Below, in pieces: positions 22,528 through 48,842 of a stretch of DNA of 64,000 bases. The notes under the pieces are model-generated. The model saw only the letters and a program-made list of their open reading frames with translations. It was not told the DNA's origin and made no database searches. The stretch comes from Hysterangium stoloniferum (Eukaryota; Basidiomycota; Agaricomycetes; Hysterangiales; Hysterangiaceae). Both the position numbers and the translations under genes were made by a program. Position 1 is the first letter of the stretch, and each line of letters opens with the position of its first letter. The DNA lies in NCBI GenBank assembly GCA_015178975.1, contig WHVD01000149.1:124001-188000 (forward strand), written 5' to 3'.

Positions 22528-23236
22528 GTGCCCCCCAGTTTGAAGAGCTACAGTATGTCAGATGAAGTTCTGAAGGACATTGGGAATTCCTCCCCATGCC
22601 TCCTGTCTTGTATGAATGATTTGCTTGATTTGCTTGGTGTGTCCTAGTCCAGTGTAAGTTTCTCAAGTAGATCTACAAGGGTCCTAGCCCAGAGTATATC
22701 TGTGTATTCCAGGGGAGCACAGGATTGATCCACCAAGAGTCATCAAAACTTCAGGAGTTTGATGCTTTCAATTTCCTTGGCTAGCCTTTCCCTTTCCATT
22801 ATATTATTGATGCACAAGTACAGGTCCTTCATGTGGGTTGTTGGCATGAGTGGCCTGCTGTAGCCCCATATGCTTCCCTTGAGCAGTAGTAGTCACATTG
22901 CCTGCTCCAACTGTGTCAACATGCTTCCCACCGTGAATCACATGGATAGGTAGTTGATGGATACATGTATCCAATTGGTTGGTGTAGTAACAACCTCAGG
23001 GGTCAGGAGTGTGGGCAAGGGAGACAGGTCGACAATGGCAGATCGATTAGGGTGGTGGGGGGAGGGTCTACAACAAGTGGCTCAGTTTCTGGAGTCACAG
23101 CCTTCATCTTTCCTTTAGCTGTCTTGCTCATCTGGGCAGGTTCTGTAATCAGGCTCTTGTTAGGGCTTCCATTAGTTCCTCACTGGGTATGTGAATGGGA
23201 CTGCTGAGGGACACACAAAGAGAGGGGGTGGGCTCC

Positions 23237-24646
23237 TGTAAAGGGTCGAGTAGTTTACTACTCAATGTGCGATCGTTATCGACTAACGATAGTACGAAAT
23301 ACAACCAACTAGTAGTTTGAAGTGATCAAGTATAGATTATGATTGACCCTTAAGGTGCAATCAGTAAATAATTACAAGAGCGGATCGACCTTGCGGTATG
23401 GTCTGATTGCGTAGCTAGCTGGACTAACGGCCAAGTAGCGGAGAGAGAGTATGTATTGTGAGGGAGAGAGAATATTCTAAGAACGTGAACTACAATGGAT
23501 ATTCTTACTGCGCGAATCAAGAGGTAGAAGTCAAGTCGAGTGGTAGTAACTGACTTCGACTGTTTCAGTGTGAAGTGTAGTTACTGTAGATATAGTAAGA
23601 GAAATAAAGCGAAGACTAGTTTCAGACTAGGCCCTGAACCAGTACTTGCGTGTGCAGGTGATGGTTGTCGGGGTTGATGTTAAGAACTGAAAACTGACTA
23701 ATGTCGGTGGCCGACAGGGACCGATCGGAAGGACTTGGCTTCAGCTTATGTGCTGCGCCCTCGCAAATATCTGTAGGGTGTCCTTAAATTTTGGGTGGGC
23801 GAAGACTAATCCTAATGAGTACCTTTCGGCATGATACCGATCAGAATCGAAGGACAAGTCGAGCGTCAGGCCAAGGGGTTGGGGCCGGGAGTGGGCGAGC
23901 GCACGCGAAGGCGGATGGGGGGATTCTTAGTATGAGACTGATACAGGCGTATGAGGGTATTCTGAGTCGATATTCTGATTGCCTAGTGACTACAACTACA
24001 GCAGGTTCATATACAAGTAACAGGCATCTGGAAAATACTAATGGGGAGAAGGGCAGAACACGGTATTAACAATAAGCTTGACTAGGAACGGGAAGTTTAT
24101 GATTAGTTCGGAGGCCGATGATAACCGAGAGCGGGATTACGATAAAAGGAAATAGTTCAAGGACTACAAATATAGATAGACATATGCGAAGCATAAGATT
24201 GAACGGATCAACATAATAAAGGGGACGTATCAAAGTTTGACCAGACAATACGAGTTATTTTGACGTGGGCGTAAACGGAGTTTGATCTTCGCGAAAACAT
24301 TTGTCAGCTTCAGGGCCGATGGTTTCCGAGATGGTGACTTGAAACGTTGACAAGTGGTGATAACCTCGGGACCAATAGGGTTGCGACACGGTCGTAACAG
24401 TTGAAAAGTGTCTAAGTTCCTATCTGTGTGACTACTACCTGTGACATGTGCATACTTCTTGTGGGCGAGAGCGCCCACAAGCATACATGGACTCTCGAAC
24501 TAAATAAAGGGGGTTTGACCCATATTTATGAGATATAGAAATAGAATAAAAATATAGAACATAAAGAGAATAATGAGATTATAAAGCAGTTAAGGAGTAA
24601 GGCTTAGAGCCTTTAGCCGCACCTCCTATATGACTTATCCTTCACA
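23237..24646 (-). repeat. Solo LTR, family F (about 683 bp without the nested LTR), TSD GCTCC
   Basis: Starts TGTAAAGGGTCGAG and ends TTATCCTTCACA (reverse orientation), with GCTCC at 23232-23236 and 24647-24651. It carries a complete family-G LTR inside. A 3' half of the same family is at 11570-12035. Confidence 0.92.
23678..24399 (-). repeat. Solo LTR, family G (722 bp), nested, TSD GTTGA
   Basis: Reverse orientation from TGTTAAGAACTG to GGTCGTAACA. GTTGA stands at 23673-23677 and 24400-24404. The opposite-strand copy at 54474-55194 and the 5' LTR at 60528 are the same family. Confidence 0.95.
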
Positions 24647-25815
24647 GCTCCAGTGAAGTGATTGTGTGTGTGATGAGTTGGTATGGAGCATTGAGGTCTC
24701 TAGGGGGTTCTGGTAGAAGTATGGATGTAGGTAGTGGAGAGGTATGAAGGGATGGTCCGACTGCATAGGTGGAGGCATGATGAAGGGATCTTGCATGATG
24801 GGAGAGGTGGGATTGGGAGGATACAATATTGAGGCAACTGGTGCTGATGTCATTGGCGACTCATCCTGATGGTGAGGGAGAATGATAGGTGGTTTGTGTG
24901 TGACAGAGAAAGCATGGTTGGGGGGAACCTCATCCCAACTGCCATGGATGCCACTCCAGTCATTGCCTAACAAAATCTGTGACCTTGATGAGGAAATGTC
25001 TGCATTACCCCCAGTATGCTCAACACTTTCTGTATGAGGTGAGGGATCAGGGAGTAGTGGTGGTAGGAAATTTGGGTTTGGCTTGTTGACTTTGTGACAT
25101 AGTGTGATTGTTCAGGTGTTCAGGGAGGATGTGAGGGAAAAGAGATGGAGGAGATAAAGAGAGTCATGAAAATTTAGTGAATTTATGTTAATTTAAACCC
25201 TGCTTGGTTGTTGGTGTGAAGAGGTTGGGGGGGAATAGGGAGAGTGGGAGGGGGAGTTGATTACATCTTGAGATAGATAAATGATAAACTTGCATTCTTA
25301 ATCATGAGAAGGTAGTATATAGTTTGTTAAATCCCATAAATGGCCTTATACATAAGTCCTGAGGAGGTCATTACTGTTTAACCAAGTATCCTCTTCTGGC
25401 CCATATCCTTTCCATCAGACTTGAAAGGGTAATCAAGTTTGATGCTTTTTGTGCCCTACTCTCACTTTGACCTTGTATTCTTCATCCTTGGTATTTAATT
25501 CCCTTGGATTATTGAGTTGAGTCCTTTGTCTGAATTCCTTGGGAGAGAAATGATATTTCTTGAGATGCTTCCTGTTGATGACTGGGTACATTTGGTATTC
25601 AGAAGGGAGTTTAAGTCAGAAAATTTGAGAGTTGATTTTTTCCAAAACTTCAAATGGCCCTATTCATCTTTTAATGAGCTTTTGCCCATCACCTTTGGCT
25701 TCAACAAGTTCAAGGGAATGGGGGTTGATCAGAATGTAGTCCCCTTCCACAATCTCCTCTGCGGGCCTCCATTTCTTATTGTAGCTACAAGCTTGTATAT
25801 TTCACAGTACCTCTC

Positions 25816-27073
25816 ACAGTGCCCCCCAGGTCGAAGGGCTATGTCAAAGAAGGTGTTGAAGGATGCTTGGAACTCCTCCCCATGTGTCCTGTGAAGAACC
25901 TCTGAGTTGCAGGATAGCGTTGCCCCAGGCGAGATGCTTGGTGTGAAAGGAAAGGACAATGTCCTCCCACTTCAAAACATTGTTGGCAGATGTCAGCCCA
26001 TCCAGCCTCTGAAGGGAGGAGACCCAATGACCATAGGTCTTTTGGCACATTCAAATGATAGTGTGAATGTGATCAGCAGAGGTGGTTGTAATGCAGGTGA
26101 TGAGAGGGAGCTGGGGGTGCAGTGACGGCAGGTCAGGAGTGGGAGGTGGTGCACAGCTCACGTCCCCACCAGAGGAAAGTCCTCCTGAGGTGTCAGAATC
26201 CAATAGCAGGTGCTCTAACAGGTCAACCAGTCCACAGCCGAATGAATTGGTGCATGCTCAGGAAGGACACAAGCAGAGTCCACTAGCAGAGACCAAAACA
26301 TAGAGAGCTTCACCTGTTTGATGTCCTCCACTAAATGCAGCTGTTCATGGTGTGCCCCCATCGCTGCAATCTGTTTCCACAAAATCCATCCATTTATGAC
26401 CTGAAGGGGGAGCGATGGTTGAAGAATTGTTGTGTCCTTCCATTCTCCTCCATTCCTGCTGTGTCCGCTTTGAAGGGACATTATCCCTAGCTCCCATCCT
26501 CTGCTGTCCTTCTAAGTACTCCTCTCTCCTCTTCCATTTAAGTGTTTTCAATTCCTCCTGGACCTGTGCAGAGAAAGCCTTGGACTGCCATTTCTTTTTG
26601 ATCTCCTCTTCGGTAGAAGGGAAAATACTACAAGAAGGTGGTGGGGTTTCACTCCATGTTCCCGAGGGAGCCCCCCAAGTATTAGAGGACCAGGGCATAG
26701 CTTTTGAAGTGGAGTCCATCCGTGTAGGGTGTGTGGACAATGAGGTCTCCTCCACATGCTCGACAGTTTCTGTTCGAGGTGGTGGGGAAGGAGGAACTGT
26801 TGTTTGAGGTCGAGGTATTCTTTTAAAGTTGGGAAATCGGGGTCTGGGGAGAGGAGCGTATGGAGTAAAAGCAGTTCCATTCCCTGAGTTGGTGGACATT
26901 TCCGCTGTGTTGTCCTGCACAGCGGAGGGTATCGACGAAGGCGTTCCAGAATTACCCGTGGAGTGCTCGACTTGGTCAGTACAAGACGGTGTGGTAGAAG
27001 TATTAATAGGTTGGGGTCACGGTATTCTTTTGAAGTTGGGGAACTTGGGTTTGGGTTGTTGCTCCTGCGACAT
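25816..27073 (-). pseudogene. Accessory ORF (ORF3) and polypurine tract of element X
   Basis: The minus-strand start is near 27073 (MSQEQQPKPKFPNFKRIPRP). The tract PRFPNFKRIPRP is repeated near 26830-26850. A Lys/Glu-rich middle block follows (LKWKRREEYLEGQQRM), then SGHKWMDFVETDCSDGGTP near 26345-26405, and SSQDTWGGVPSILQHLL near 25850-25900 just before the polypurine tract. The KW-DF-ETD-S-GGTP and WGGVP blocks match ORF3 of element B (36540-36620, 38165-38205). The length would be about 400 residues. The function is unknown; no nucleic-acid-binding motif is seen. Confidence 0.65.
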
Positions 27074-27697: not shown

Positions 27698-27702
27698 CCC
27701 TC

Positions 27703-28343
27703 TGTGAAGGGTATGCATATATGCATGATTGGACAGTGGAATAATATGCATATTATAGTACTTTATTATCTAGTTTCTATTCCTTTTCTTTAATTCTCTT
27801 TATCCTTCGAGCATACCCGTATTTCTTAGTTCGAAGTCTTGTGTAAACCTATGGGCGCTCTCAGTGCCAAAAGACAGACACCTTTTTACCCAGCAGACAC
27901 CACCTCGTAACGACCCAGACGTTGAATAGCGAGAGGTGTCAAGGGTAACATCTCAGCTACTTATAAAGGTAGCAACTTCTTGCGTACTAGTAATCTTTGG
28001 ACTTGAACCGCGAAGGTCGAGTCCCACTCTCAAGTCTTTGCACTCGTCGACACTCTAGTTGATTCGCGCTGCTATATCTCTACCTTTGATATTCAGTCTT
28101 TTGCTGATTATCTTTCTTACTTCTAGCTACAAGTTGTACCGTAAAGGTCAACTCTTCTTTTCTCCGGTCCTTATCGTCACGAGCAACTGTACAGTTGCTC
28201 TTGTGACGTGTAGTGCGTCTTTTAATAGTACTATCAGTCTAGTAATTTACAGTATTGTACAGAATGGTCAATACTTAATAATAGTAGTTGAATAAATACT
28301 ATTCTTCGTACATTGAGTGGTCAGAATCTATCGACTCTTCACA
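27703..28343 (+). repeat. 5' LTR of element B (641 bp)
   Basis: From TGTGAAGGGTATGC to CGACTCTTCACA. It contains perfect palindromes at 27713-27726, 27741-27756 and 28181-28200. It is followed after one base by TGGTGATCCGAGCCGG, a primer-binding-like site. Confidence 0.96.
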
Positions 28344-31369: not shown

Positions 31370-34300
31370 ATGAAGGAGGATACTACGATCCTTTATCGAA
31401 AACGGGGTCCCCCCAGTGGTTACTCTAGCATAGGAGTTGCAGCGCTCCATGTTTTCGGTCATGTAGGAACTCCCGATTCACCGGAACGCGTTAAAGTCCG
31501 AATGGACACGGGAGTGGATCTTTCCCTTATATCAGAGGAATTCTACAAGGGGCTGCAGGGCATATATAAGTTGAAACAAGGACTCAAGTTACGTCTAATC
31601 CAGTTCACGGGTAATGCTAAGGTTATCGGATATGTTAATATTCCTATTTACCTGAAGTTCGCAGCAGAAACGTATGTCGTTAGAGGAATGACGGTGCCAA
31701 TTCGTTTAGGAGAAGACTTCCATATTAATTACGAAATTGGTACTCTAAGAGATCAGCCGTTGGGATCTAGACTTATTCTCCCGGGATGACAGGGTTTTAT
31801 TCCAGCCAGTTCTTCTAAGGAACCTCAACCTTTGACCTTCACTGTCAATAAGGCCCCTTTCAGGAAGCATGAGAAGGAGCAACCCAAGCTCACCTCTCTC
31901 CCTGATAAAGGCGTGTGTACTGAAAGAGTCGCGCGAGCCTTGGAGGATTGCACTATCGATCCAGAGTCAGCTAGACTAGTGCCCATTTTTGTTGAAGATC
32001 TAAAGGGTGAGGAGTGGATTGTTGAAGGAATTGTATTGCAAAACGAGGACGGTTCCATATTAGCCACACCAATCACGGCAATTTCAAGGAATAGTGTGGC
32101 AGTACCCTTAGCCAATCCATCGCTAACCCCTAAGACTATCTGACGAGGGGAGACAATAGGGATAACCCATGACCCCGGTCGTTGGGCTCACAAGCCCAGG
32201 TCACTTGAGGAGAAAGGTTTAATGGCAGCAGGTGCGACCAAGATCGCACACCTTATCAAAAGTCTCTCTCAACTTGAGGAGGACCGTCAATTTGCCTCAG
32301 AGAGGCCTAAGCCACCTGTTGAACCAGAGATTGCGGATGATTTCGAACCGCCTGGTCCTAAGACGGCTGCGGTGGCTGATAATGAGAAATTTGCCTCAGA
32401 GGATCTTCACAAGCTAGTCAACTTGGGACCAGATATACCAACGGAGGTCCTGCCATGTCTCAGATCAGTTTTGACTGAGAACGTTAAGGCTTTCGGAGTC
32501 GACGGACGGTTAGGGCAAGTGGAATGTAGAGTCCCTGTCCCCTTGAAAGAGGGTGCCCAGCCTGTATCCATGCCTATGTTCCCTTCGTCCCCTGCCAATA
32601 GGAGAGTTATAGACGAGCAAATGGATACCTGGTTCGAACAGGGTGTCATTGAGCCATCTAAAAGCCCCTGGGGGGCGCCAGCCTTTGTAGTATATCACAA
32701 TGGTAAACCGCGCGTGGTCATCGACTATTGGAAACTTAATCATCTCACTGTTCCAGATGAATTCCCTTTACCACGTCAATCGGAGATCATGCAAGCGCTG
32801 TCGGGATCAAATGTTCTCTCTTCTTTTGACGCGCTAGCTGGGTTTACTCAATTAGAAATGTTGGAGGACGATAAGCCCAAAACAGCCTTCAGATCTCATA
32901 GAGGGCTGTGGCAATTTAAAAGGATGCCATTCGGGCTCAGAAATGGCCCCTCCACATTTCAGCGCATCATGCAAACAGTTTTAGCACCCTACTTGTGGAT
33001 TTTTTGTTTAGTCTACATCAATGACATAGTCATATTCTCTAAGAACTGGGATGATCATTTGCTTCACCTGAATCAGGTGCTTGGCGCTATCGCTTTGGCC
33101 GGCATCACTCTCTCCCCCAAGAAATGTTTTATCGGATATAATTCAATCTTGTTGTTGGGTCATAAAGTATCCAGGTTGGGTTTTTCGACCCATCAAGAGA
33201 AAGTTCATGCTATATTGGAACTGGCCCCACCCACTAAGGTTTCTGAACTACAACGGTTCCTTGGAATGGTCCTTTACTTTTCGGCGTATATACCATTCTA
33301 TTCATGGATGGTGTCCCCTTTATTCTCGCTCCTAAAAAAGGGAACACCCTGGACATGGACCGCTGAACATGTCCAAGCTTATGAGGATGTTAAAACCGCA
33401 CTAGGATCAGCACCAGTGCTGGGACATCCAGTTAGTGGGATGCCCTATCGATTGTATACGGACGCTTCAGATTTTGCCTTAGGTTGTTGTCTCCAACAAG
33501 TCCAGAAGATGGCTTTAGGAGACTTGATGGACACTAAAATCTATGCCCAAGCCAAGTTAGCTTTTGACTGTGCGCAGGATGTGCCATCCTTTGTTCATCG
33601 GTACAAAACCAAACAGCCCGAGATTGAGTGGTCAGATTCATGGGGACCCACTTTTGAGGCGACCGAAGTTACTGTTGAACGAGTCATTGCATATTGGAGT
33701 CGCACACTGAAAAGCACTGAACATAACTATTCTGCCACTGAACGGGAAGCGTTAGCAGCAAAGGAGGGACTAGTCCATTTCCAACCCTTCATTGAAGGTG
33801 AACATGTCCTGCTCATTACAGATCATGCAGCTCTGCAATGGGCTAGATCGTACGAGAACACTAATCATTGACTAGCCACATGGGGGGTGATATACGCTGC
33901 ATTTCCAGGTCTCGAAATTTTACATCGAGCAGGAAGAGTTCACAGTAACGTGGACCCACTGTCCAGACTCCCTCGTGTACCAGCCTTCGTGAGCCCTATT
34001 AGAGATGATTTACAAGCTATCACCTCGACCTCTCTGGACAAGAGTACTGAGGAAAAACTATGGAAGGATAAAACTGCTAAGAAGGTGGTCTTCTCAATCA
34101 TAAACGATTCCATGGAACCTTTTGGAGTAACTCAGAAGGTCTGACAGTCGGAATGGGATTCTCATAATGCAGTAAGGGACGATCAGGAGGACGAGTCTGA
34201 CTTTGCACTGCGTCATCCTCAGCTGCTAATCAGTATCGAGGAGGGATACATAAAGAAATTTCTAGAGGGATACTCGAAGGACCCAGTCTTCAGAAACCTC

Positions 34301-35746
34301 TACGCTCGAGATACCCCTTCACCCAATGTGGTTGTTACTCCTTCTCACTACTTTGTGGGAGCAAACAGACTCCTGTACTTTTGTGACTCGGACTGGAAAG
34401 GTCGAGTCTGCATGCCCAGAACCATGACTAACTCTATTTTAAGGTTGGTACATGATAATCCTTTTGAGGGAGCACACGCCGGAGGTCAGCGGTTGTTCAA
34501 CCTGATGAAAGACCGGTTCTTTTCGCCAAAAATGCTGCAAGATTGCATGTCATACGTGTGTACCTGTGACATCTGCCAAAAGACCAAAATTGATCGCACC
34601 ACTCGTCAAGGAGCCCTCAGACCTGCCGACATACCTTTTAGGCCTTTCAAAGTAGTTTCTATGGACCTGATCACTGGACTACCTGACTCGGGAAAGGATT
34701 TGTATTCAGCAGTTTTCATCGCCGTTGATAAATTAACGCGTTTTGCTATTACAATACCTACTTTCTCGAACCTTACGGCTGAAGGATTTGCACGAATGTT
34801 TGTCAAACAGGTGGCCAGCCCCTTTGGACTGCCCTCTTGAATAATCTGTGATCGGGACAAGAGATGGACCTGCAGGTTCTGGCGGGAAGTCTGTAAGATT
34901 TATGGTACCACCCTTGCGGTATCTTCTGCCCATCATCCCCAGACGGATGGACAGATGGAGAATATGAATGTGACCATAGAACAAATGCTTTGAGCCTATT
35001 GTGTTTCTGCCAAGGAGAGCTGGTCCCAATGGATTGAGGTGGTAGTCCACACGTACAACTCAACCGTTCACAGTTCCACGAACTACGCTCTGGCCTTCTT
35101 ATTAATGGGATACCTCCCGAGAGGGATGTCTCGAGTTCTAGGAGGTGACGAACCCCTAGTTCCTAGAGAACTATCAGACAGCCCTATGGCCGACCAATGG
35201 ATTCTCGAACTAGAAAATCATCGACAGATGGCACGCGATTCAATCGCTCGAGCCCAAGAGATTCAAGCACAAGCATATAACAAGAAGCAAAGACCTGTAG
35301 AAGATATCTCCAAGGGAGACTTCGTATTAGTGAACCCCCACTCCCTCGAACTGGTGGAAGTCAAGGGAATGGGGAAGAAACTAATACAAAGATGGATTGG
35401 ACTGTTCGAGGTCCTTGAGAAATTGAACCCTCAAGTATTTAGGCTTAAGATTCCCCCGGAGTATCTGATGCATCCAGTCATTCATCGGGATCATCTACGG
35501 AAATATCAACCCTCTCCTCCCAACCTCGGTCCAAGACCCCAACTTGAGAACCTAAGAGAGTTGAAATCAGATCATGAAGAATATGAAGTCGAAGCTATTG
35601 TTGGACATAGAAAACAGCGAAATCGTCTGCTATTTAGGGTGCGCTGGAAAGGTTATGGACCCGAAGAGGATTTGTGGTTAACCAGTACTAACCTCAGAAA
35701 TGCTCCGGCACTTCTGAGGGCATACAAGGCGCTGTTCAAAATCTAA
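31370..35746 (+). pseudogene. pol: Element B pol: protease, RT, RNase H, integrase, chromodomain
   Basis: Domains in order: retropepsin (VRMDTGVDLSLISEEFY, 31497-31548); RT (EQMDTWFEQGVIEPSKSPWG near 32615-32675, then MPFGLRNGPSTFQ and the YI-D catalytic box near 33015); RNase H (LYTDASDFALGCCLQQ near 33455-33500); integrase HHCC (VHDNPFEGAHAGG to CDICQKTK, 34445-34590); DDE core beginning SMDLITGLPD near 34655; and a terminal chromodomain (YEVEAIVGHRK, RVRWKGYGPEEDLWL, 35580-35685). This is the chromovirus layout. It has several breaks; the longest uninterrupted piece is 549 residues. Confidence 0.92.
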
Positions 35747-36095
35747 CAGGATATATGCGCTCGAGGAATCATCTATTCTATCATTTATTCCATTTCTTTC
35801 ATAACTTCCTTTCAGAAACATCTCAGTCATTCAGTGAGCCATCTCATTGGCTTTTATTCTCTTTCATTTTTCTATCCCTCCGGTCGATTGGGACAACCAC
35901 TAATTGGTGGCGGACACATTTACCCAAAACCCAGCCACAATTAATGAATTTCATTTAACGACCAACCGAGCGGAGTTTCAATTCAATATATATAAAAAAA
36001 AGTACACGTAAATTCACATAAATTTTCTTTATCTTTCATACCACATCCTTCACCTATCTACAGCCCTTCCCTCTATCTTCAACTTCACCACTTTA
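35747..36095 (+). promoter_or_regulatory. Spacer before ORF3 with a TATA-like run
   Basis: About 350 bp between the pol stop and the accessory ORF. It holds a TATA-like run (TATATATAAAAAAAAG, 35986-36001) followed by a pyrimidine-rich stretch (CATCCTTCACC...CTCTATCTTC) of the kind found in fungal leaders. This suggests ORF3 could have its own transcript. It is inferred from base composition only. Confidence 0.35.
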
Positions 36096-38246
36096 TTGTG
36101 CTACAATGCTCCCATTCCAACAAAACAAGCAAGTCCTCCTAAGTTCAAAAAGGTCCCGCGGGCCCCGACAGCCAGTACATCCACGACCGGCAGGGGATTC
36201 ATCACCCGCATGCCTCATACAGACAATGTCCCGAGCAATTGGAGTACCCAAGAATCAACCCCCCTGTCGACTTTCTCCTTTGGTGCTGAGCCGGGGGGAA
36301 ATACCGGTACAGATTGGAGTAAGCCGTTAGGGCCCTCCTTCAGACTGTCATCAGAGGAAGTCGCTGCTACTATGCGGAGGCAGGAAACATTTATGGAAGA
36401 ACACAACGCAAGGAGGCTCACCCGCAAAAGAGAAAGGCGCACTGAGTATAGAAGTCAACAGGAGGCGAGGGGAGCAAGAGAAGGAGTCCCCTCCAAGCGA
36501 CAGCGGCGTGAGGACAGAGCACAATTTGGAAGCAGAGCTTCCGCGCTGATCCTTCCCCCCCCGGGAGAGAAATGGGCCGACTTCGCGGAGACCGATGATA
36601 GCGAGGGTGGGACGCCTTGCATTAGGATGACGGGAACCAAGAGCTGGAAGGAAAAGGAGGGTACCATCTTTTATGACTGGGAACTACTTCGACGTATTAA
36701 GTTGCAACGAATAATTTGTACCCGAGGGGACGGTCAAGTGTTGCCCCAGCGAGAAAAGGGATACCGTAGGGGACCAATCGATTTTTCCTCGGATGAGGAT
36801 GAGGAGGAAGACGAGAATAGGAATGGTGCGTACAGCATCCGATATCTGGGAGAGGATTGCCATGAAGGGTTCCTCCTCCCGTCAAAAGTTCGCTTCATAA
36901 CCAGTGACCCCAACCAAAGACAAACACAGAAACCGTCATCCAAAGTATGGAGCGGTCATCGCCCTAGTCAACTGTCACAGGAATGCAAACCTTCTACACT
37001 TCCAGTCCCACGTCTTTTGCCAACGTCAAGGCCCCTTCCCATCCTCCACCCAGCACACACTCCCTCAGCCCCGATTCTAACACCTCGTCTACCTCCCTCC
37101 CCAAAAGCTGTACCGGTCCCTACCTCACTTAGGATGTCGAGGCCCCCTCCCATCCTCCACCCAGCACACACTCCCTCAGTCCAATGTGAACCTTCCCAGA
37201 TTCCAGTCCCACACCTTTCGCCAATGTCGAGGCCCCCTCCCATCCTCCTCCCAGCACACACTCCCTCAGCCCCGATTCTGGCACCTCGTCTCTCTCCCTC
37301 CCTGAAAGCTGTACCAGTCCCGACCCCACTTCCGCCATCACCAGGTATCCCTCCCGACTCTCCGTATTCATATTGCGTGTCCTTAGGTAGCCCTATCCAC
37401 GACCTTCCACAAGAGCGAATGGATGTCGATTTGGACCCTTTTACACTGGACGTCATCATTCCCATGACAAGCAGAAAGGCAAAGGAGATGCAGCCACCAC
37501 TCCTCTCCAAGAGCGATCCCCTATTCCCATCCCCGACAGCCCACTTCCCCCCACTGAGCTCATATCCACAACTTTCTGGATGCGAGTAGCTGTCAACTAC
37601 CCTTCCGAACAGTTTCCTCTCAGAAGGGTACTATCACAGCTAGTGCCGGTACTTCAGCAACCGGTCCTTCACGGGAGCCTTAAGGGTTGTTGCGGTCTTG
37701 CTCCGTTGTGGGAGATAATGGAGGATTTCTATCTCTCCTTCAAGGATCTCGCAGAGGGGAAGAACCTTGCGCGAGCAGCTCAGGAGATTAAACTCTCTAT
37801 GTTCCCGTACATCATAGTGGAGCCTCATTGTCTGCCCCCAGACTCAGCGAGTGTCCTCTCTATTGCTGGCTTCGTAGATTTAATCGAGGCCCTCGTCCTG
37901 ACACCTCCCACAGAGACCACTACGCAGCCACACATTCCTGCCCCACTACCCGCATCTTCGTTTCCCCTCCCCAATGCTCCTCTTCTCACGCAGATTTCCA
38001 CTCCACCAGTTAGTGTCTGTGCAGTCATTCGTTGCAGAGAGAAAGCCTACAGATGATGGGCTGACTCCTTGTACAGGAATTCTAGTGATTTGGCTCGGGC
38101 GAGAATAGCCGAATCCTTCAGAGTAAAAAGGGAACGATGGGGAAACATCATTTTGGACCTTGGGGGATCCTCACAGGAAGCTTGGGGTGGCGTCCCAGAT
38201 GCTCTTCGACACCTTGTATAGCACATCCCTTCGAACTGGGGGGCAC
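36096..38246 (+). pseudogene. Accessory ORF (ORF3) of element B
   Basis: Open for about 500 residues from near 36096 and continuing with breaks to the polypurine tract at about 38235. The N-terminus has PPKFKKVPRAP; next a basic, Arg-rich helix (RRLTRKRERRTEYRSQQEAR, about 36409-36465); then PPGEKWADFAETDDSEGGTP (about 36559-36618); an acidic run (SSDEDEEEDENR); a Pro-rich region with two or three copies of a PPPILHPAHTPS-like repeat (37015-37340); and SSQEAWGGVPDALRHLV at the end (38169-38218). No known domain is recognised. The KW-DF-ETD and WGGVP blocks recur in elements X and Y, and the tail in A2. A role as an envelope-like or regulatory accessory protein is conjecture; no signal peptide or membrane segment is visible. 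Confidence 0.7.
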
Positions 38247-38887
38247 TGTGAAGGGTATGCATATATGCATGATTGGACAGTGGAATAATATGCATATTAT
38301 AGTACTTTATTATCTAGTTTCTATTCCTTTTCTTTAATTCTCTTTATCCTTCGAGCATACCCGTATTTCTTAGTTCAAAGTCTTGTGTATACCTATGGGC
38401 ACTCTCGGCGCCAAAAGACAGACACCTTTTTACCCAGCAGACACCACCTCGTAACGACCCAGACGTTGAATAGCGAGAGGTGTCAAGGGTAACGTCTCAG
38501 CTACTTATAAAGGTAGCAACTTCTTGCGTACTAGTAATCTTTGGACTTGAACCGCGAAGGTCGAGTCCCACTCTCAAGTCTTTGCACTCGTCGACACTCT
38601 AGTTGATTCGCACTGCTATATCTCTACCTTTGATATTCAGTCTTTCGCTGATTATCTTTCTTACTTCTAGCTACAAGTTGTACCGTAAAGGTCAACTCTT
38701 CTTTTCTCTGGTCCTTATCATCACGAGCAACTGTACAGTTGCTCTTGTGATGTGTAGTGTGTCTTTTACTAGTACTATCAGTCTAGTAATCTACAGTATT
38801 GTACAGAACAGTCAATACTTAATAATAGTAGTTGAATAAATACTATTCTTCGTACATTGAGTGGTCAGAATCTATTGACTCTTCACA
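38247..38887 (+). repeat. 3' LTR of element B (641 bp)
   Basis: Same length as the 5' LTR. Preceded by the polypurine tract CTGGGGGGCAC and followed by the target duplication CCCTC. Confidence 0.96.
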
Positions 38888-40110: not shown

Positions 40111-40584
40111 TGTGAAGAGTGGCGGAAGTTCTGACCGTTCTATATATGAAGAAATGAGTAGAAAGGAAGAATATTGACCTATTCGGTGCAATATAAGAGA
40201 AAGTGAGAGAAAGAGCACAAGATGACAAAGGAGTCAACGAGTATGATGGTTCGAGTGGAGGCCTCGACTGTTATAGTTCGAGGCCAGAAGTGTTCAGTAG
40301 TTCAGATAATGCTACCTATATGGTAGCTGACACGTTACCCTGATCACTGCTCGTAGTAGACCTAGTTTGTGTCTTACGAGTGGTGGTTCCTGGGTTAAAG
40401 TGTGTCTGAGTTCTAATTGGTGCTGAGTGCACCCACAAGTATACACAATGCTTCGAACTAATGAAATATGCAATATTCGAAGACCATGAAAGATAGAAAA
40501 ATATGAATAGAATATGTAAAATATAAATAAAATAAAAGGAGTGTTTTACCACAATGAAACTGTGGTAAAAGCATACTCCTCACA
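40111..40584 (-). repeat. 3' LTR of element A2, family A (474 bp)
   Basis: From TGTGAAGAGTGGCGG to GCATACTCCTCACA, followed by GTGCCCCCCAG, the complement of the polypurine tract. The left target duplication GTGAG is at 40106-40110. Confidence 0.95.
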
Positions 40585-41191
40585 GTGCCCCCCAGTTCGA
40601 AGGGATGTGCTATACGAAGTTCTGGAAAGCTTCAGGGATGCCCCCCAGGTGTCTTGTGTGGAGCCCCCCAAACTGCAAGGTGCCAAGACCCCAGTATTCG
40701 AAGAGAGGTTGGTGGGTTTATGGGCAGTAAGGAAAGATGTCGATGTGGAAAAAGGGAGGGAAGGGAAGGGGAAAAAAATAGATCCATTCTTTTCCTTCAG
40801 TCCCAAGTCGAGCACTCCTTCAGTCCTCGAACAGCAAATGGACTACTTGATAGCCTTCTAGACACTGCCACATTGTCTCCTTCCAGGACACGAGGCATTC
40901 CTCATAGTAGATGTCCTGTAGGCGGACAGACTGTCATGTAACTCGTTGGGCAGTACATCTTGGGGTTAGGAGGGTAAGCTATCATTAGAGTCCATCGGAA
41001 TCTCCTCCTCCTTAAATGAGTACCGGAGGAGGTTTATGATGCTTTTCTGTGGCGAGATAGTGTAAGAGTCGGGATCAGGATCTTTCCATGCTGCTAGTCT
41101 ATGGGACCTAGCAGCATGCCAGGATGTATACCCTATACCCCCTATACCGCCCCCCACTTTGCGATATTGTGATTCCACCATGATCTCGCAA
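40585..41191 (-). pseudogene. 3' part of the A2 accessory ORF and adjoining sequence
   Basis: A minus-strand reading near 40590-40650 gives QDTWGASLKLSRTSY and LRTGGHCE, the same tail as ORF3 in element Y. The part from 40966 to 41181 reads GGGIGGIGYTSWHAARSHRL and an acidic end (KEEEIPMDSNDSL). That second block is not part of ORF3 in element B and may belong to the inserted cassette to its right. Confidence 0.5.
41131..41191. repeat. Left copy of a 60-bp direct repeat with hairpin
   Basis: C-rich tract (CCCTATACCCCCTATACCGC) followed by a 33-nt imperfect hairpin (41159-41191) starting TTGCGATAT and ending ATCTCGCAA. A second copy in the same orientation lies at 49993-50054, about 8.9 kb away. 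Confidence 0.7.
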
Positions 41192-41587
41192 ATTAACCAT
41201 TATTGTGCACAGTTAGGTTGCAGTCTATGTTCCCAAAAGGTCTAGCCCATGGCAGGTCTAGAAAGTGTCCAGTAATGCTTCAAGTAGGTGGGTGAGTCTG
41301 AAGGAAAAAGAAAAAATCACGAAATCAACTGAGTTCAGTACGATTGTAATAATGAACCCGAATACGGCACTTGAGTTGGGTGTGTACACATTCCTCACTC
41401 CAAAATCCCAACACAGGCACATAACTGCTTCTCCTGCCCCCGTCGAGGCCAAATTTGACATCACAAGTCATGCCTATCAAAAATGCGTGTCGTCGCTGTG
41501 CCTAACGAAAACACACGAACTGAAATCGAACATCGGGTCACATAGTTCTGTCCAGACGTATCTGATAAAAGTAAAGGGAAGGGGGTG

Positions 41588-43044: not shown

Positions 43045-43454
43045 TGTTGGAAATACAAGTGCAACACAGTCTATTGACCTTTTGTTTCCGATTGTTCCAA
43101 ATTGACACAATTGTTATATAAATTCATCCAACCCCTTTTGTTTAGTGTCTCATCACACTAACCTTGTTTCACATAGTGTTTTCAACAATGTGTTTGTTAT
43201 TGATCTACTTATTTATATGTGAAAAGACTACATTTCGTATTTAGTCTTTGAGCTAGGTGCATATCACCTCAGACATTTACATACTATTTGCACACGACTG
43301 AGGTGAGTTAATGTTTTTCTTACTTATCTACTTGCACTTATGCAACATAGTGTAACTGTCTCGGTACAGGTAATTGATATAGACGTTTGCATACTATTTG
43401 CGCACGACTGAGTGTAACTGTCTCGTTACAGGTTATCGTGCTTAAAGTCTTTTA
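43045..43454 (+). repeat. 5' LTR of the Copia element (410 bp)
   Basis: Starts TGTTGGAAATACAAG. It carries an extra roughly 110-bp segment compared with the 3' LTR, bounded by two copies of a 31-bp sequence (GAC-TTT-CATACTATTTGC type) near 43270 and 43384. The last base is set by comparison with the 3' LTR and its target duplication. Confidence 0.88.
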
Positions 43455-43517
43455 GGTTATGGGCCCCGCGCTATAATCTTCGTCTCACCATTTATACACT
43501 GCCTTACCCCGTGAACC

Positions 43518-45360
43518 ATGTCCCTTGCTGGTGCCATCACTACTGACACCCTCCCTAACAATGTACCCAAGCTTGACCCGAAAGGAACCAACTGGGCTAT
43601 TTTCATTTTTCGTTTCCAGACTGCAGTAGAAGCCAAAGAACTCTGGAATCAGTTTTATGGCAGTAATCCCTGCCCATCCCCTCTCGTCGCCACTATGCCT
43701 ACCACTGTTGAAACAGCAGATATCAACAAATGGCACAAGAATGAGAGCCTAGCGAAAAACTTGCTTACCCAACGAATCCCTGATTCAACAGCATTACATG
43801 TCAAGGGTCTTGCCACTGTCGCTGTCATGTGGGCAGAGATCACTAGGGAGTTCACTGAGAAAGGAGCATATGCACAAACAGAGCTGCGCACACAATTCCT
43901 TGAGTCGTCGTGTCCTGGTGGAGGTGATGTACGGCAGTTCCTGGATGGATTACGGACAAAGCGTGGGGAACTTGCATCAGTTGGAGTTACAATTGATGAA
44001 AAAGATTATCGCTCTACAATCATCAAATCCCTTCCGAACTCTCTTGCCAACTTCACATCAAATCAGCTCACCTCTGCCAAGCTTTGGAGTCCCACCAAGA
44101 CCATTGACCCAGATATCCTTATTTCCATCATATCTGAAGAGTGGGAACATCAAAAAATGAAGTACCCTCTGCACCATCAAGTCAAAGGCACTGACACTGC
44201 TCACGAAGCCATGGCAGTTGATAGTAAAACCAGATCCCTCAATAGTCACTACACCAGTGTGAGAGGTATGGCGAAATACACTCAGGAAATATAGTCGGAT
44301 GTGCTCTTACTATATTTCCTTTATTATTTCTATTTTCTCTCTTTCATTATACCTATAATTAGTTCGACGACCTATGTATGCGGTACATCGACTCTTGTGG
44401 GCGCACACACACCAGACTTATGTATTCTAGCGCCGGTAGTTTAGAACTCAGACACTTTTTACACTGCAACCACGACTTACCCAGACACCCGTTAGTGTCC
44501 TGTAAGTTGTGATTGGTGTATCGTCTCGACCGTCACAGACGGGCTTTAGCTACTCATTCAAACTGAGTTTCGAACTGTATCAGTTGAAACTCAATCCCTA
44601 TCTCAACTCGCGTGGACTACATCCACGCTACTCTATTATTCGACTCTCTAACTACTCTACTTGCACTGGAGCAGTTGTCCAGAATCGCACTTAACCAGTT
44701 GATTCTTCTTATTCGTTCTAGCTATCTACCTTACTTTAGATAGCTATTTCTCTCTACTGTATTGAACTACATAGTCAATACGCGTTCGGTCCGTATTAGA
44801 CTTAGACAGTCAATACATAGTGGTATCGTACTTCAACGGTCGATATTCTTCGTATATAGAACAGTTAGAACTTCTACCACTCTTCACAACCAGTGATAGG
44901 CCCCCACGGGCTTGTTGGAACTGTGGTTCAACTGAACACTTGAAGCGCAAGTGTCCACTCCCACCCACAAATAATGGCCTTCTGAAGCCGAATGAAGGTT
45001 TGGCCAATGTCGCTGAGGACTCTAACTCTGAGGATGGAGCATTCGCAGTTAGCGAGTCTGAGTTTAGTCTTTTTGATAAGAGCTCCTTACCCGAACTCAT
45101 GTCTGTAGAGTCTTCCTCTATTGCAGATATTGAAGACCACATGGAAAACGAAGAGAATGTCAATGATTGGTTCTCTGAAGTAGGTGATGACGATTCACCT
45201 CTAGGCTGTGAAATGGAAGACCTGGAAGTATCTGAGATGAGCAACAGCAGATTGTTCATGGACGAAAGGTCCCACTCACCCAGAGCCCAGGACGAGGAAG
45301 TCGGAACAGCTGCTGGGGTCAGTACAGATTGTCCTGACAAGCCAGTGTTGAGTTATATGA
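43518..45360 (+). pseudogene. gag: Copia gag with zinc knuckle
   Basis: Starts MSLAGAITTDTLPNNVPKL at 43518 and follows the UBN2-type gag fold (WAIFIFRFQTAVEAKELWNQ, then GDVRQFLDGLRTKRGELASV). The reading is continuous for about 245 residues up to the inserted solo LTR at 44258. After it the CCHC knuckle CWNCGSTEHLKRKC is at 44919-44960, followed by an acidic Ser-rich stretch. Confidence 0.88.
44258..44888 (+). repeat. Solo LTR, family C (631 bp), in Copia gag, TSD ACCAG
   Basis: From TGTGAGAGGTATGGCG to CTACCACTCTTCACA, flanked by ACCAG at 44253-44257 and 44889-44893. Gag coding resumes directly after it. It is the innermost of four layers here (X, A2, Copia, this LTR). Confidence 0.95.
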
Positions 45361-45397
45361 ATCTGGAACTACATGACACATATCCCCTTACCGGAAA

Positions 45398-48300
45398 ATG
45401 TTTGATACCCTTTCAAGCATTCCCCCGAAGTCATTCACTGCTGCAAATAAACAGAGTTTTGCCACTACAGGAGTTGGGGAAATGGTCATCCAGGTCCCAA
45501 ATGGGTTTGATGTATCTATGCTTCGACTTACTGAAGTGCCTTTTTCACCTGAAGTTGGCTACACATTAGTGTCAATTGGCCGTCTTGATGAAAAAGGATT
45601 CTCCTCCACTTTCGGAAATGGTATGTGCACTATCACCGATCCTGATGGTGAAGTCATTGGTCAGGTTCCCAAGACGGCGAAAGGACTTTACAGAGTGGTC
45701 CATGAAACTGGTGGTATTACACATGCTGTAACTGAAACAGAAAGTGTCACTGTCATGGAACTTCATCGTCAGATGGGGCACATTGCACCTGAAGTTGCAC
45801 AGCGACTAGTTAAAAAAGGCCTTGTCAGTGGCCTCAAACTGGATACAACATCAGATGAGCTTACTTTCTGTGAGCCTTGCATCTATTCCAAAGCAACTAG
45901 GAAGCCTATTGCCAAGGCTCACCAAGGGGACCGTGCCACAGAGTTCGCTGGAGAGGTCCATACAGATATTTGGGCTCCTGCACCTGTCGCTACTCTGTGG
46001 GGACGAAGATATTATATATCCTTCACAGATGATAAAACTTGTTTAACACACCTTTACCTTTTAAAGCAGATGTCTGATGCTTTTCCTGCTTACAAGGAGT
46101 ATGAAGTGTGGTGCAATACACAGATGGGAGCCAAGGTGAAAATCCTTCACTCAGATTGAGGTGGCGAGTACCTAGGAAAGGAATTCACACTCCATTTGAA
46201 GAATTCAGGTACAGCACAAAAACTTACAGTTCATGATACCCCCCAGCATAATGGTGTTGCTGAGCATTTGAATCGCACTCTCATAGAGAAGGTTCGTGCC
46301 ATGCTTCATGACAGTGGCTTACCATGTTTTCTCTGGGGAGAAGCTGTCAGTCATGCCGTATTTTTGAAAAACCAAACATCTACCAAGGCCTTGCCTAATG
46401 GTATAACACCACATGAGGCGGCGACAGGAAAGAAACCTGACTTATGGTATTTGCGGGTGTGGGCGAGCAAGGTGTGGGTGCGTCTGGAAACAGGCAATAA
46501 GCTGGGTAACTGTGTAAAAGAAGGCCGTTGGGTTGGCATTGACTCATCCAGTGAGAATGGCTGTTGAGTCTACTGGCCACTTGAGCACAGAGTCACTGTT
46601 GAGCGAAATGTCTATTTTGACCCATCTGCAGCAGCACCGATATCATGTGAGGGGGAGGAAGATGATTTTCAGATTCCAAATGCAATAATATCGACGCCGT
46701 CTGACTCACCAGATCCACCACCCAGTAATACCACCACACCTGCATCTGAACCACCCACAAAGTGTATTCGAAAGCCTAGTCAATGCATTCTGGACATCAT
46801 AAATGGCACTGGGAGAAATACTCACTGGCCTAGTGAACCTACAATCCCACATGGCATCCAACTTCCTCCACAAGTCGAGAATGTTATTTTTGAGGAAGAA
46901 GGAGTAGCAGAACAAATGATGCTTGCAATAGAAGAAGATCTTCTTGAGGCATCTGAAGTCGCAATGGAGATGAATGACGAAATTGCAGAAGCTGAAGCTT
47001 TAGAACCCAGTTCTCTAGCAGAAGCAAAGCGTCGTCCAGACTGGCTACATTGGAAGCTGCTGGTACCTGGGAGCTGACTGACTTACCCTCTGGAGCACAT
47101 CTGGTAGGATCAAAGTGGGTTTTCCATGCCAAGAAAGATGCTGCTGGCCATATTGTACGCCATAAAGCACGTCTCATAGCTCAAGGTTTCTCACAGGTCC
47201 CTGGTGTTGATTATTTCGACACCTATGCCTCAGTCGCCAACCTGTCTTCCATATGAACTGTCCTAGCCCTATCAGCTCATCTCGACCTCGAACTTCATTA
47301 GATTGACATCAAAGGTGCTTACCTGAATGGTACCCTCACTGAAGATGAGGTCCTCTACATGCGTCAACCACCAGGCTTCGAATCGTCCAAACACCCCAAA
47401 AAGGTCTGTCGATTATGTAAAACACTGTATGGCCTAAAACAAAGTGGGAGACGTTGGTATCAGAGGCTAGTCGAAATTCTAGTCGACAAACTAAACTTTG
47501 TACAGTGCAATGTTGACCAAGCCGTATTTTTTTGACGTGGAGACTCAGGTGAACACACAATTGTGGTGGTACATGTGGATGATTGCACTATAGCTGCAAA
47601 ATCCCTTGATCATGTTATTTCCCTCAAGTCGCAAATCAGCAAGTACATTGAGATTACTGATTTGGGTGAACTCCATTGGTTGCTAGGCATTGAGGTCACA
47701 AGAAATCGTGACACACATACTATCTCCCTATCCCAAGCATCCTACATCGACTCTATTCTATGTCATTTTGGTTTTGCAGAACTTAAGCCTGTATCCACTC
47801 CAATGGAGCCGAATGTTCGCCTCCATTCTGGGCAAGCCCCCTCAACTGGCGAAGAGTATGCAATAATGCGTCATGTTCCTTATCGTGAAGCGGTAGGCTC
47901 ACTGATGTATGCCTCTCTTGGCACACGTCCTGACATCTCTTATGCTGTAACCACCGTATCACGATTTTCAAGCAACCCTGGACCAACACACTGGGATGCT
48001 GTTCAACGCATCTATCGTTATCTGTTAGGCTCAAAGCATCTGAAATTGACATATGGGGGAGCTGAGAAAGTGCTGACTGGTTTTGCAGATGCGGATGGAA
48101 GTATGGGTGAAGATCGACGAGTGATATCAGGATATGCCTTCCTCATTGATGGTGGAGCCGTATCGTGGTCCTCAAAGCGTCAAGAAACTGTTTCACTTTT
48201 GACAACAGAGAGCAAGTATGTTGCTGCAACACATGCTGCGAAAGAGGCATTATGGCTCTGTACTTTTATTGGGCAACTTTTCACACCTATCTCTGGTCCA

Positions 48301-48513
48301 ACGACTCTCTTTTCTGATAAACAATCTGCTATTGCACTTGCAAAAGATCATCAATATCATGCTCGCACGAAACACATCGACATCCGTTTTCACTTCATTC
48401 GTTGGGTTATCGAAAATGGTAAACTGCACCTTATCTATTGTCCCACAGCCAACATGGTTTCCGACACTAACCAAAGCCTTGCCTTCACCGAAAGTCAAGC
48501 ATTTCGCTGCTGA
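45398..48513 (+). pseudogene. pol: Copia pol: GAG-pre-integrase, integrase, RT, RNase H
   Basis: The pre-integrase block has ELHRQMGHIAPEVAQRLV and CEPCIYSKATRKPI (45750-45910). Integrase core pieces follow (EVHTDIWAPAPVATLWGRRY; HNGVAEHLNRTLIEKVRAML near 46245-46310). RT runs from VGSKWVFHAKKDAAGHIVRH (47100-47165) to the HVDDCTIAA box (47569). RNase H follows with TGFADADGS, SGYAFLIDGGAVSWSSKRQ and TESKYVA (48070-48230), ending HIDIRFHFIRWVIENGKL (48376-48425). This is the Ty1/Copia order. It is a fossil with several breaks. Confidence 0.92.
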
Positions 48514-48542
48514 ACTAGGACTGCGCTCAACTTGAGGGGGAG

Positions 48543-48842
48543 TGTTGGAAATACAAGTGTGACACAGTCTATTGACCTTTTGTTTCCGATTGTTCCAAAT
48601 TGACACAATTGTTATATAAATTCGTCCAACCCCTTTTGTTTAGTGTCTCATCACACTAACCTTGTTTCACATAGCATTTTCAACAACACGTTTGTTATTG
48701 ATCTACTTATTTGTACGTGAAAAGACTACATTTCGTATTTAGTCTTTGAGCTAGGTGCATATCACCTCAGACGTTTGCATACTATTTGCGCACGACTGAG
48801 TGTAACTGTCTCGTTACAGGTTATCGTGCTTAAAGTCTTTTA
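48543..48842 (+). repeat. 3' LTR of the Copia element (300 bp)
   Basis: Starts TGTTGGAAATACAAG after the purine tract; it is followed by the target duplication AGGCT. It lacks the roughly 110-bp segment present in the 5' LTR. Confidence 0.92.

Follow-up and report, generated by a model that had tools for sequence, protein, structure and literature searches.

A third open reading frame under purifying selection between the chromodomain and the 3' LTR of chromoviruses in Hysterangium stoloniferum

The usual description of a fungal LTR element is gag plus pol (PMC3248453, in the part of that account available). In the window, the 64,000-nucleotide stretch of Hysterangium stoloniferum DNA analysed here, a chromovirus designated element B carries a further region, ORF3, between its chromodomain and its 3' LTR, which raises the question of whether this region is a gene maintained by selection or a frame left to drift, and of what its product might do. 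The relevant features of element B are the following.

27702..28001, plus strand: 5' LTR of element B, 300 nt of repeat, 98% identity to 38246-38545
32144..33871, plus strand: element B pol, reverse transcriptase and RNase H (Pfam RVT_1 E=5.9e-23, RT_RNaseH_2 E=2.2e-26)
34994..35746, plus strand: end of element B pol, integrase C-terminal SH3 and chromodomain (Pfam Chromo E=1.7e-11, SH3_Tf2-1 E=1.6e-11)
35963..36105, plus strand: ORF3 leader, TATA-like AATATATATAAAA and then a pyrimidine-rich stretch; possible internal promoter
36106..38221, plus strand: ORF3 of element B, broken in the window copy, with frameshifts near the start and at about 37.5 kb and a TGA at 38054
36351..36527, plus strand: Arg-rich segment of ORF3, predicted to be mainly one long helix (AlphaFold); dN/dS 0.10 in X-X'
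36570..36960 (limits approximate), plus strand: ORF3 blocks 3-4 (KWADFAETDDSEGGTP ... SDEDEEE ... CHEGFLLP), 54-59% identity between L054 and L071; dN/dS 0.10-0.14 in X-X'
36982..37331, plus strand: Pro-rich linker with a 149-nt direct repeat (85%); dN/dS 0.55 in X-X'
37571..37900 (limits approximate), plus strand: ORF3 C-terminal domain (WMRVAVNYPSEQF ... VDLIEAL), dN/dS 0.11 in X-X'; related pieces in X and Y
38030..38221, plus strand: ORF3 tail, from CREKAYR and a stop to SSQEAWGGVPDALRHLV and a stop (sequence reading and translated search)
38246..38545, plus strand: 3' LTR of element B, 300 nt, with PPT-like GGGGGGCA upstream

Element B is a chromovirus (Ty3/gypsy), with Pfam matches to RVT_1, RNase H, Integrase_H2C2, and Chromo in that order between paired LTRs; the rve core of the window copy, which is broken, falls below the Pfam cut-off (18.1 vs 32.6 bits), and the gag region gives a CCHC knuckle match slightly below its own cut-off (20.1 vs 20.8 bits). 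The pol stop at 35744-35746 is followed by a spacer of 359 nt and then by the ORF3 region, which is discontinuous with pol and requires a start of its own. The preliminary description had claimed one long open frame with ordered blocks after pol, and of this claim the blocks stand but the single open frame does not. PPKFKKVPRAP, the Arg-rich stretch, KWADFAETDDSEGGTP, and the Pro-rich repeat occur in the order described and are followed by SSQEAWGGVPDALRHL in another frame. The ATG at 36106 is soon out of frame, the main frame occupies 36012-37589 (525 codons), the C-terminal domain is read in a different frame (37391-38056) ending at an in-frame TGA (38054-38056), and the tail stops at TAG 38219-38221, a few bases upstream of the PPT-like tract and the 3' LTR.

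The genome (111 Mb in 554 contigs) was searched for further copies. Using a 164-aa N-terminal piece of B as the query, 150 of 777 first-look candidates were scored, and in 28 of these the match is free of stops and the open frame reaches at least 700 aa (hand count). The 20 copies fetched from those 28 were picked for openness and are therefore uninformative on the fraction of copies that is open; all begin MLPFQQNKQ, with ATG-initiated frames of 640-706 codons, exactly 681 in 16 of the 20. A second set of 39 copies was fetched by DNA similarity to the window copy; none passes a 600-codon openness test, and at 38 of the 39 loci the match extends from 5 bases or fewer from the pol stop, through the spacer, and into ORF3. 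When the N-terminal piece of element X was used as the query, 150 of 901 candidates were scored and 8 combine a stop-free match with a frame of at least 740 aa; the four fetched, L068, L069, L070, and L071, have frames of 820, 828, 826, and 826 codons, counted from an MSQEQQ start (MLQEQQ in L069). In the open copies ORF3 is located between the chromodomain and the 3' LTR, and it is a long frame outside gag-pol that is coding and conserved across copies. An antisense gene was rejected: antisense frames in the 20 open B copies reach no more than 117-192 codons per copy. The third ORF is a genuine gene of the chromovirus lineage comprising B, B', X, X', and the decayed Y.

Within the window, pieces of ORF3 are also found in the elements X, Y, and A2.

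26348..27073, minus strand: element X ORF3, N-terminal part, broken; 89% identity to P0003 residues 1-242
25847..26299, minus strand: element X ORF3, C-terminal part and tail; 59% identity to P0003 residues 679-826
22558..23230, minus strand: element Y, decayed ORF3 C-terminal half and tail; 46% identity to P0003 599-712, E=3.5e-25
40607..40690, minus strand: A2, ORF3-like tail codons only, beside the PPT; GGIPEAFQNFV and a stop, translated by eye

The blocks of B had been said to recur in X, and they do so, in an N-terminal (27073-26348) and a C-terminal (26299-25847) part; the motif PxFPNFKRIPRP occurs twice in X. The tail block attributed to Y is readable at 22626-22558 on the minus strand, and a bigger C-terminal piece, absent from the preliminary description, lies at 22979-22638 on the same strand (46% identity, E=3.5e-25), so that Y retains the C-terminal half only, in decayed form. 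The tail block attributed to A2 is upheld in part: about a dozen tail codons next to the PPT can be read by eye, but tblastn detects no part of ORF3 there at E 1e-3. The A2-type segment (window 40575-41300, minus strand) is present in about 40 scored copies (of 400 first-look candidates) at 88-98% identity, with no long frame seen, yet with the ORF3-like tail codons and the PPT retained; it is perhaps a non-autonomous element borrowing the 3' end. A second X-like element end at 24635-25750 on the minus strand comprises chromodomain-like remains recognised by eye, then a spacer and an ORF3 start (MSQSQQAKPKFP) that diverges soon after. A separate element occupies 43045-48842, where paired repeats (43045-43302 and 48543-48800, 95% alike) enclose zinc-knuckle and integrase-like frames that appear copia-like by eye.

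The B protein (P0001, 681 aa) and the X protein (P0003, 826 aa) are 42% identical over 299 columns and 36% identical over the C-terminal 343 columns, and the Pro-rich linker between these homologous parts shows low similarity (30%). The history of ORF3 was compared with that of pol over 208-272 codons in one comparison of X with X' and two of B with X, using RT pieces assigned by their position, where pol is expected upstream of the same ORF3 copies. Between X and X' the RT piece has dS 0.683 and dN 0.098 (ratio 0.144), and ORF3 has dS 0.650 and dN 0.143 (ratio 0.219). Between B and X the identity is 77% in RT and 43% in ORF3, and both are saturated at synonymous sites (pS 0.85 and 0.82, respectively). 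The RT ratio of 0.14 at similar synonymous divergence indicates that ORF3 descended with pol, and the two kinds of comparison together indicate that ORF3 predates the split of B and X and has evolved faster than RT, under constraint. Recent exchange between B and X is rejected because synonymous sites are as saturated in ORF3 as in RT.

The preliminary description proposed that a conserved accessory protein had been kept, suggested the ratio of synonymous to replacement change across copies as the check, and named recent exchange or neutral change in all frames as grounds for abandoning the proposal. The check was run and favours the protein over drift. In five older pairs dN/dS is 0.22-0.26, namely 0.258 and 0.250 between B and B' (L054-L075 and L048-L075) and 0.251, 0.219, and 0.244 between X and X' (L071-L069, L068-L069, and L070-L069), the pairs being non-independent because L075 or L069 is common to them. 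A neutral model in which the same substitutions were placed randomly on sites of matching base and CpG state gives an expectation of 0.62-0.67, and for each pair none of 200 simulations lies at or below the observed value. Neither ground for abandonment holds, given the B-X saturation and the dN/dS of 1.0-1.2 in frames +1 and +2 of the same five pairs; the antisense frame that shares its third positions with the sense frame gives 0.30-0.40, an expected mirror effect. Three younger B-B pairs have dN/dS of 0.30-0.43 against simulated means of 0.67-0.73, each below the minimum of 100 simulations, although one only barely (0.433 vs 0.437), and values for younger X pairs reach 0.47.

Constraint is distributed unevenly along the protein. 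Between X and X', dN/dS is 0.10 in the Arg-rich helix, 0.14 in block 3, 0.10 in block 4, 0.11 in the C-terminal domain, and 0.19 in the tail, compared with 0.31 in the N-terminal stretch and 0.30-0.55 in the linkers, of which the Pro-rich linker has the value of 0.55. The regional order is broadly the same in young B copies, the tail excepted: the last 80 or so codons of the B ORF3 have dN/dS of 0.75 in young copies, though this tail is 56% identical between L054 and L071.

The frequencies of variants were also considered. Relative to expectation, the N/S ratio of the 20 open B copies starts at 0.81 in singletons, is 0.51 and 0.61 in variants carried by two and by 3-5 copies, respectively, and falls to 0.36 in those carried by at least 6; for the same classes the other 40 B copies (39 loci and the window) give 0.83, 0.81, 0.98, and 0.64. 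A value of 0.36 for common variants against 0.81 for singletons is what selection on replicating elements, ceasing after insertion, would produce. When all 60 B copies are taken together, variants found in at least three copies have an N/S of 1.31 in the true frame (expected 1.92) and of 2.52 and 2.55 in the other two frames (expected 2.05). Diversity across the whole of ORF3 is not below that of the non-coding spacer, at 0.033 vs 0.030 in the 20 open copies and 0.067 vs 0.055 in all 60. The end of pol, taken as a yardstick, comprises 282 bases with 33 variants in the open copies and is too small for a clean pattern. Purifying selection acts on ORF3 and is concentrated in discrete blocks; drift is rejected by the dN/dS values, the block-wise constraint, and the variant-frequency N/S ratios.

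As regards expression, a TATA-like box is present in the spacer of 58 of the 60 B copies and is followed by a pyrimidine-rich stretch and then the ATG; a similar leader order is seen in X and in X2, a further X-like element at 25.1-25.3 kb. Dinucleotide shuffles reach the observed spacer similarity in 7 of 500 cases for B-X, 2 of 500 for B-X2, and 0 of 500 for X-X2, and the 7 of 500 makes the likeness of the promoters suggestive only. We lean to expression of ORF3 from a putative internal promoter. The leader of one B copy, L054, is without exactly one 62-nt GT...AG stretch that is retained in 31 other copies matched by an anchor pattern (28 of the 60 are unmatched), and this gap suggests an intron spliced out before reverse transcription. 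Six of the 31 copies have in common an 18-nt deletion at the 3' end of the stretch that removes the AG, indicating that any splicing there is not essential.

Database searches place the protein apart from known families. At E 0.01 neither P0001 nor P0003 has a Pfam match, including any to a CCHC knuckle or capsid, and at E 10 P0001 has one match at chance level. PHROGs contains no match to the ORF3 protein, the PDB sequences, searched with P0001, contain none, and a scan of viral contigs gave no relative. Among the matches listed by the protein searches, which required shared 5-residue words, the only one is P0002 of Hysterangium stoloniferum itself; the first such search returned at least 7992 candidates, perhaps owing to Pro-rich words, and the protein may occur elsewhere. 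P0002 (G000:C554:230106-231566) is a public gene model in which the ORF3 N-terminus is fused to unrelated sequence, perhaps gag of another element as judged by eye; two adjacent genomic pieces match its residues 96-293 and 291-414 at 99%, and its first 95 residues lie outside both. Beyond P0002, the ORF3 family looks new in the families, structures, and proteins searched.

In the AlphaFold model of the piece at 36129-36986, helices are predicted at residues 75-117 and 123-133, the Arg-rich segment forming a 43-residue helix with a ten-residue pLDDT mean of up to 94. Beyond that helix confidence is low in both structure models, whose mean pLDDT is 44 and 46, and the C-terminal model and the remainder of the N-terminal model are mostly below 70, so that nuclear location and nucleic-acid binding rest on composition.

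Searches of proteins, Pfam, PHROGs, and PDB sequences gave no homologue of known function, and the role of ORF3 was approached from its composition and by analogy with CERV (PMC10309623) and TRP28 of Retand (PMC11963269), as far as the available parts of those papers describe them. The basic helix, acidic patch, Pro-rich linker, and C-terminal domain would best fit a nuclear nucleic-acid-binding regulator. The reading that we tentatively favour, at somewhat less than even confidence, is that of an accessory protein that binds nucleic acid in the nucleus, has a separate short transcript, and promotes expression or nuclear export of the element. ORF3 would be translated from this transcript, produced from the internal TATA-like promoter or by splicing; its product would bind nucleic acid in the nucleus through the Arg/Lys-rich helix, with the conserved C-terminal domain tethered by a disordered Pro-rich linker, and would act on element RNA or chromatin and thereby on element expression or nuclear export. 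Such a working mode would resemble that of Rev, Rex, CERV, or a plant anti-silencing factor, kinship to these not being implied. The more ambitious proposal of a new family of trans-acting nuclear regulators, in which a large basic-helix protein made from an internal promoter overcomes nuclear retention or silencing and aids high copy number, is possible but doubtful.

Two other protein functions were considered, and each appears unlikely. ORF3 might be a component of the particle, a second structural or RNA-packaging protein acting with Gag, whose basic helix holds RNA while the C-terminal domain contacts protein. The basic segment with its predicted long helix and the constant position of ORF3 in the element are consistent with this, but it is the gag region that carries the near-threshold CCHC match while ORF3 has neither zinc knuckle nor capsid match in Pfam, and it would be unusual for an abundant structural protein to start from its own ATG downstream of pol. 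Capture of a host gene, kept for manipulating host silencing or cell state rather than element RNA, is no more probable: the frame has its own ATG and leader, is large, and is unmatched in family libraries, but the searches found no cellular homologue and cannot separate a host source within this genome from the many element copies. Some Gypsy elements of insects and plants encode an envelope-like protein; for ORF3 this reading is suggested by the position between pol and the 3' LTR and is very improbable on hydropathy. The best N-terminal 19-residue Kyte-Doolittle mean is -0.11 for P0001 and -1.04 for P0003, so neither has a hydrophobic start, and the best hydrophobic segments (1.88 in B, 0.94 in X) have no counterpart common to both; this crude scan of the two proteins gave no combination of signal peptide and transmembrane segment.

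The remaining alternatives deny the protein a function in whole or in part. That the frame is a functionless captured passenger, open merely because the copies are young, might be argued from the many broken B copies and from an overall ORF3 diversity among B copies that is not below that of the spacer; it is rejected, as scarcely credible, by the dN/dS far under the matched neutral expectation in the five older pairs and by the block-wise constraint, and ORF3 has been kept in both B and X while synonymous sites became saturated. A function confined to the tail, acting in cis as DNA or RNA beside the PPT, would explain the A2 tail, in which tail codons and PPT are kept, and would agree with the weak protein constraint on the tail among young B copies. 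As an account of the whole ORF it is highly unlikely and is rejected by the block-wise dN/dS and the neutral simulations, since the constraint follows codon structure and is spread over several blocks distant from the PPT; the last ORF3 codons may have a cis-acting role additionally.

Hysterangium stoloniferum is described as ectomycorrhizal (PMC7550596), and a large third protein under selection in many-copy lineages of such a fungus is a candidate for how elements cope with host control. The putative regulator also provides a query for similar genes in other fungi.

The retroviral proteins Rev and Rex are separate proteins of a retroelement that carry an Arg-rich basic segment. ORF3 resembles them by description in its Arg-rich segment, but is far larger, and its export role is putative. 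The literature covered, in titles and abstract openings and with subscription papers mostly outside its scope, contains no description of the ORF3 protein. ORFs additional to gag and pol are familiar from LTR elements (PMC2864245, PMC5408684, PMC11963269, in the parts available). Novikova et al. 2010, surveying Gypsy elements, list an 'Additional ORF' (PMC2864245); in the accessible portion of that work its likeness to ORF3 is one of description. LTR elements of bdelloid rotifers have ORF3 types of their own, among them an env-like protein, a GDSL esterase, and a DEDDy exonuclease, as far as the available text goes; these and the Hysterangium ORF3 are alike as third ORFs besides gag and pol, and the Hysterangium one is without a Pfam family (PMC5408684). 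The TRP28 ORFs of plant Retand elements, for which DNA binding is suspected and a regulatory role proposed, likewise lie within a long region between pol and the 3' LTR, but in the excerpt available they are antisense and belong to non-chromoviruses, whereas the Hysterangium ORF3 is sense and belongs to a chromovirus (PMC11963269). CERV of the C. elegans element Cer1 is made from a spliced mRNA and is required for export of the genomic RNA, a function that has been experimentally tested, whereas the role of ORF3 is inferred; on the part of that paper available, and likened by description, both are accessory proteins of LTR elements beyond gag and pol (PMC10309623).
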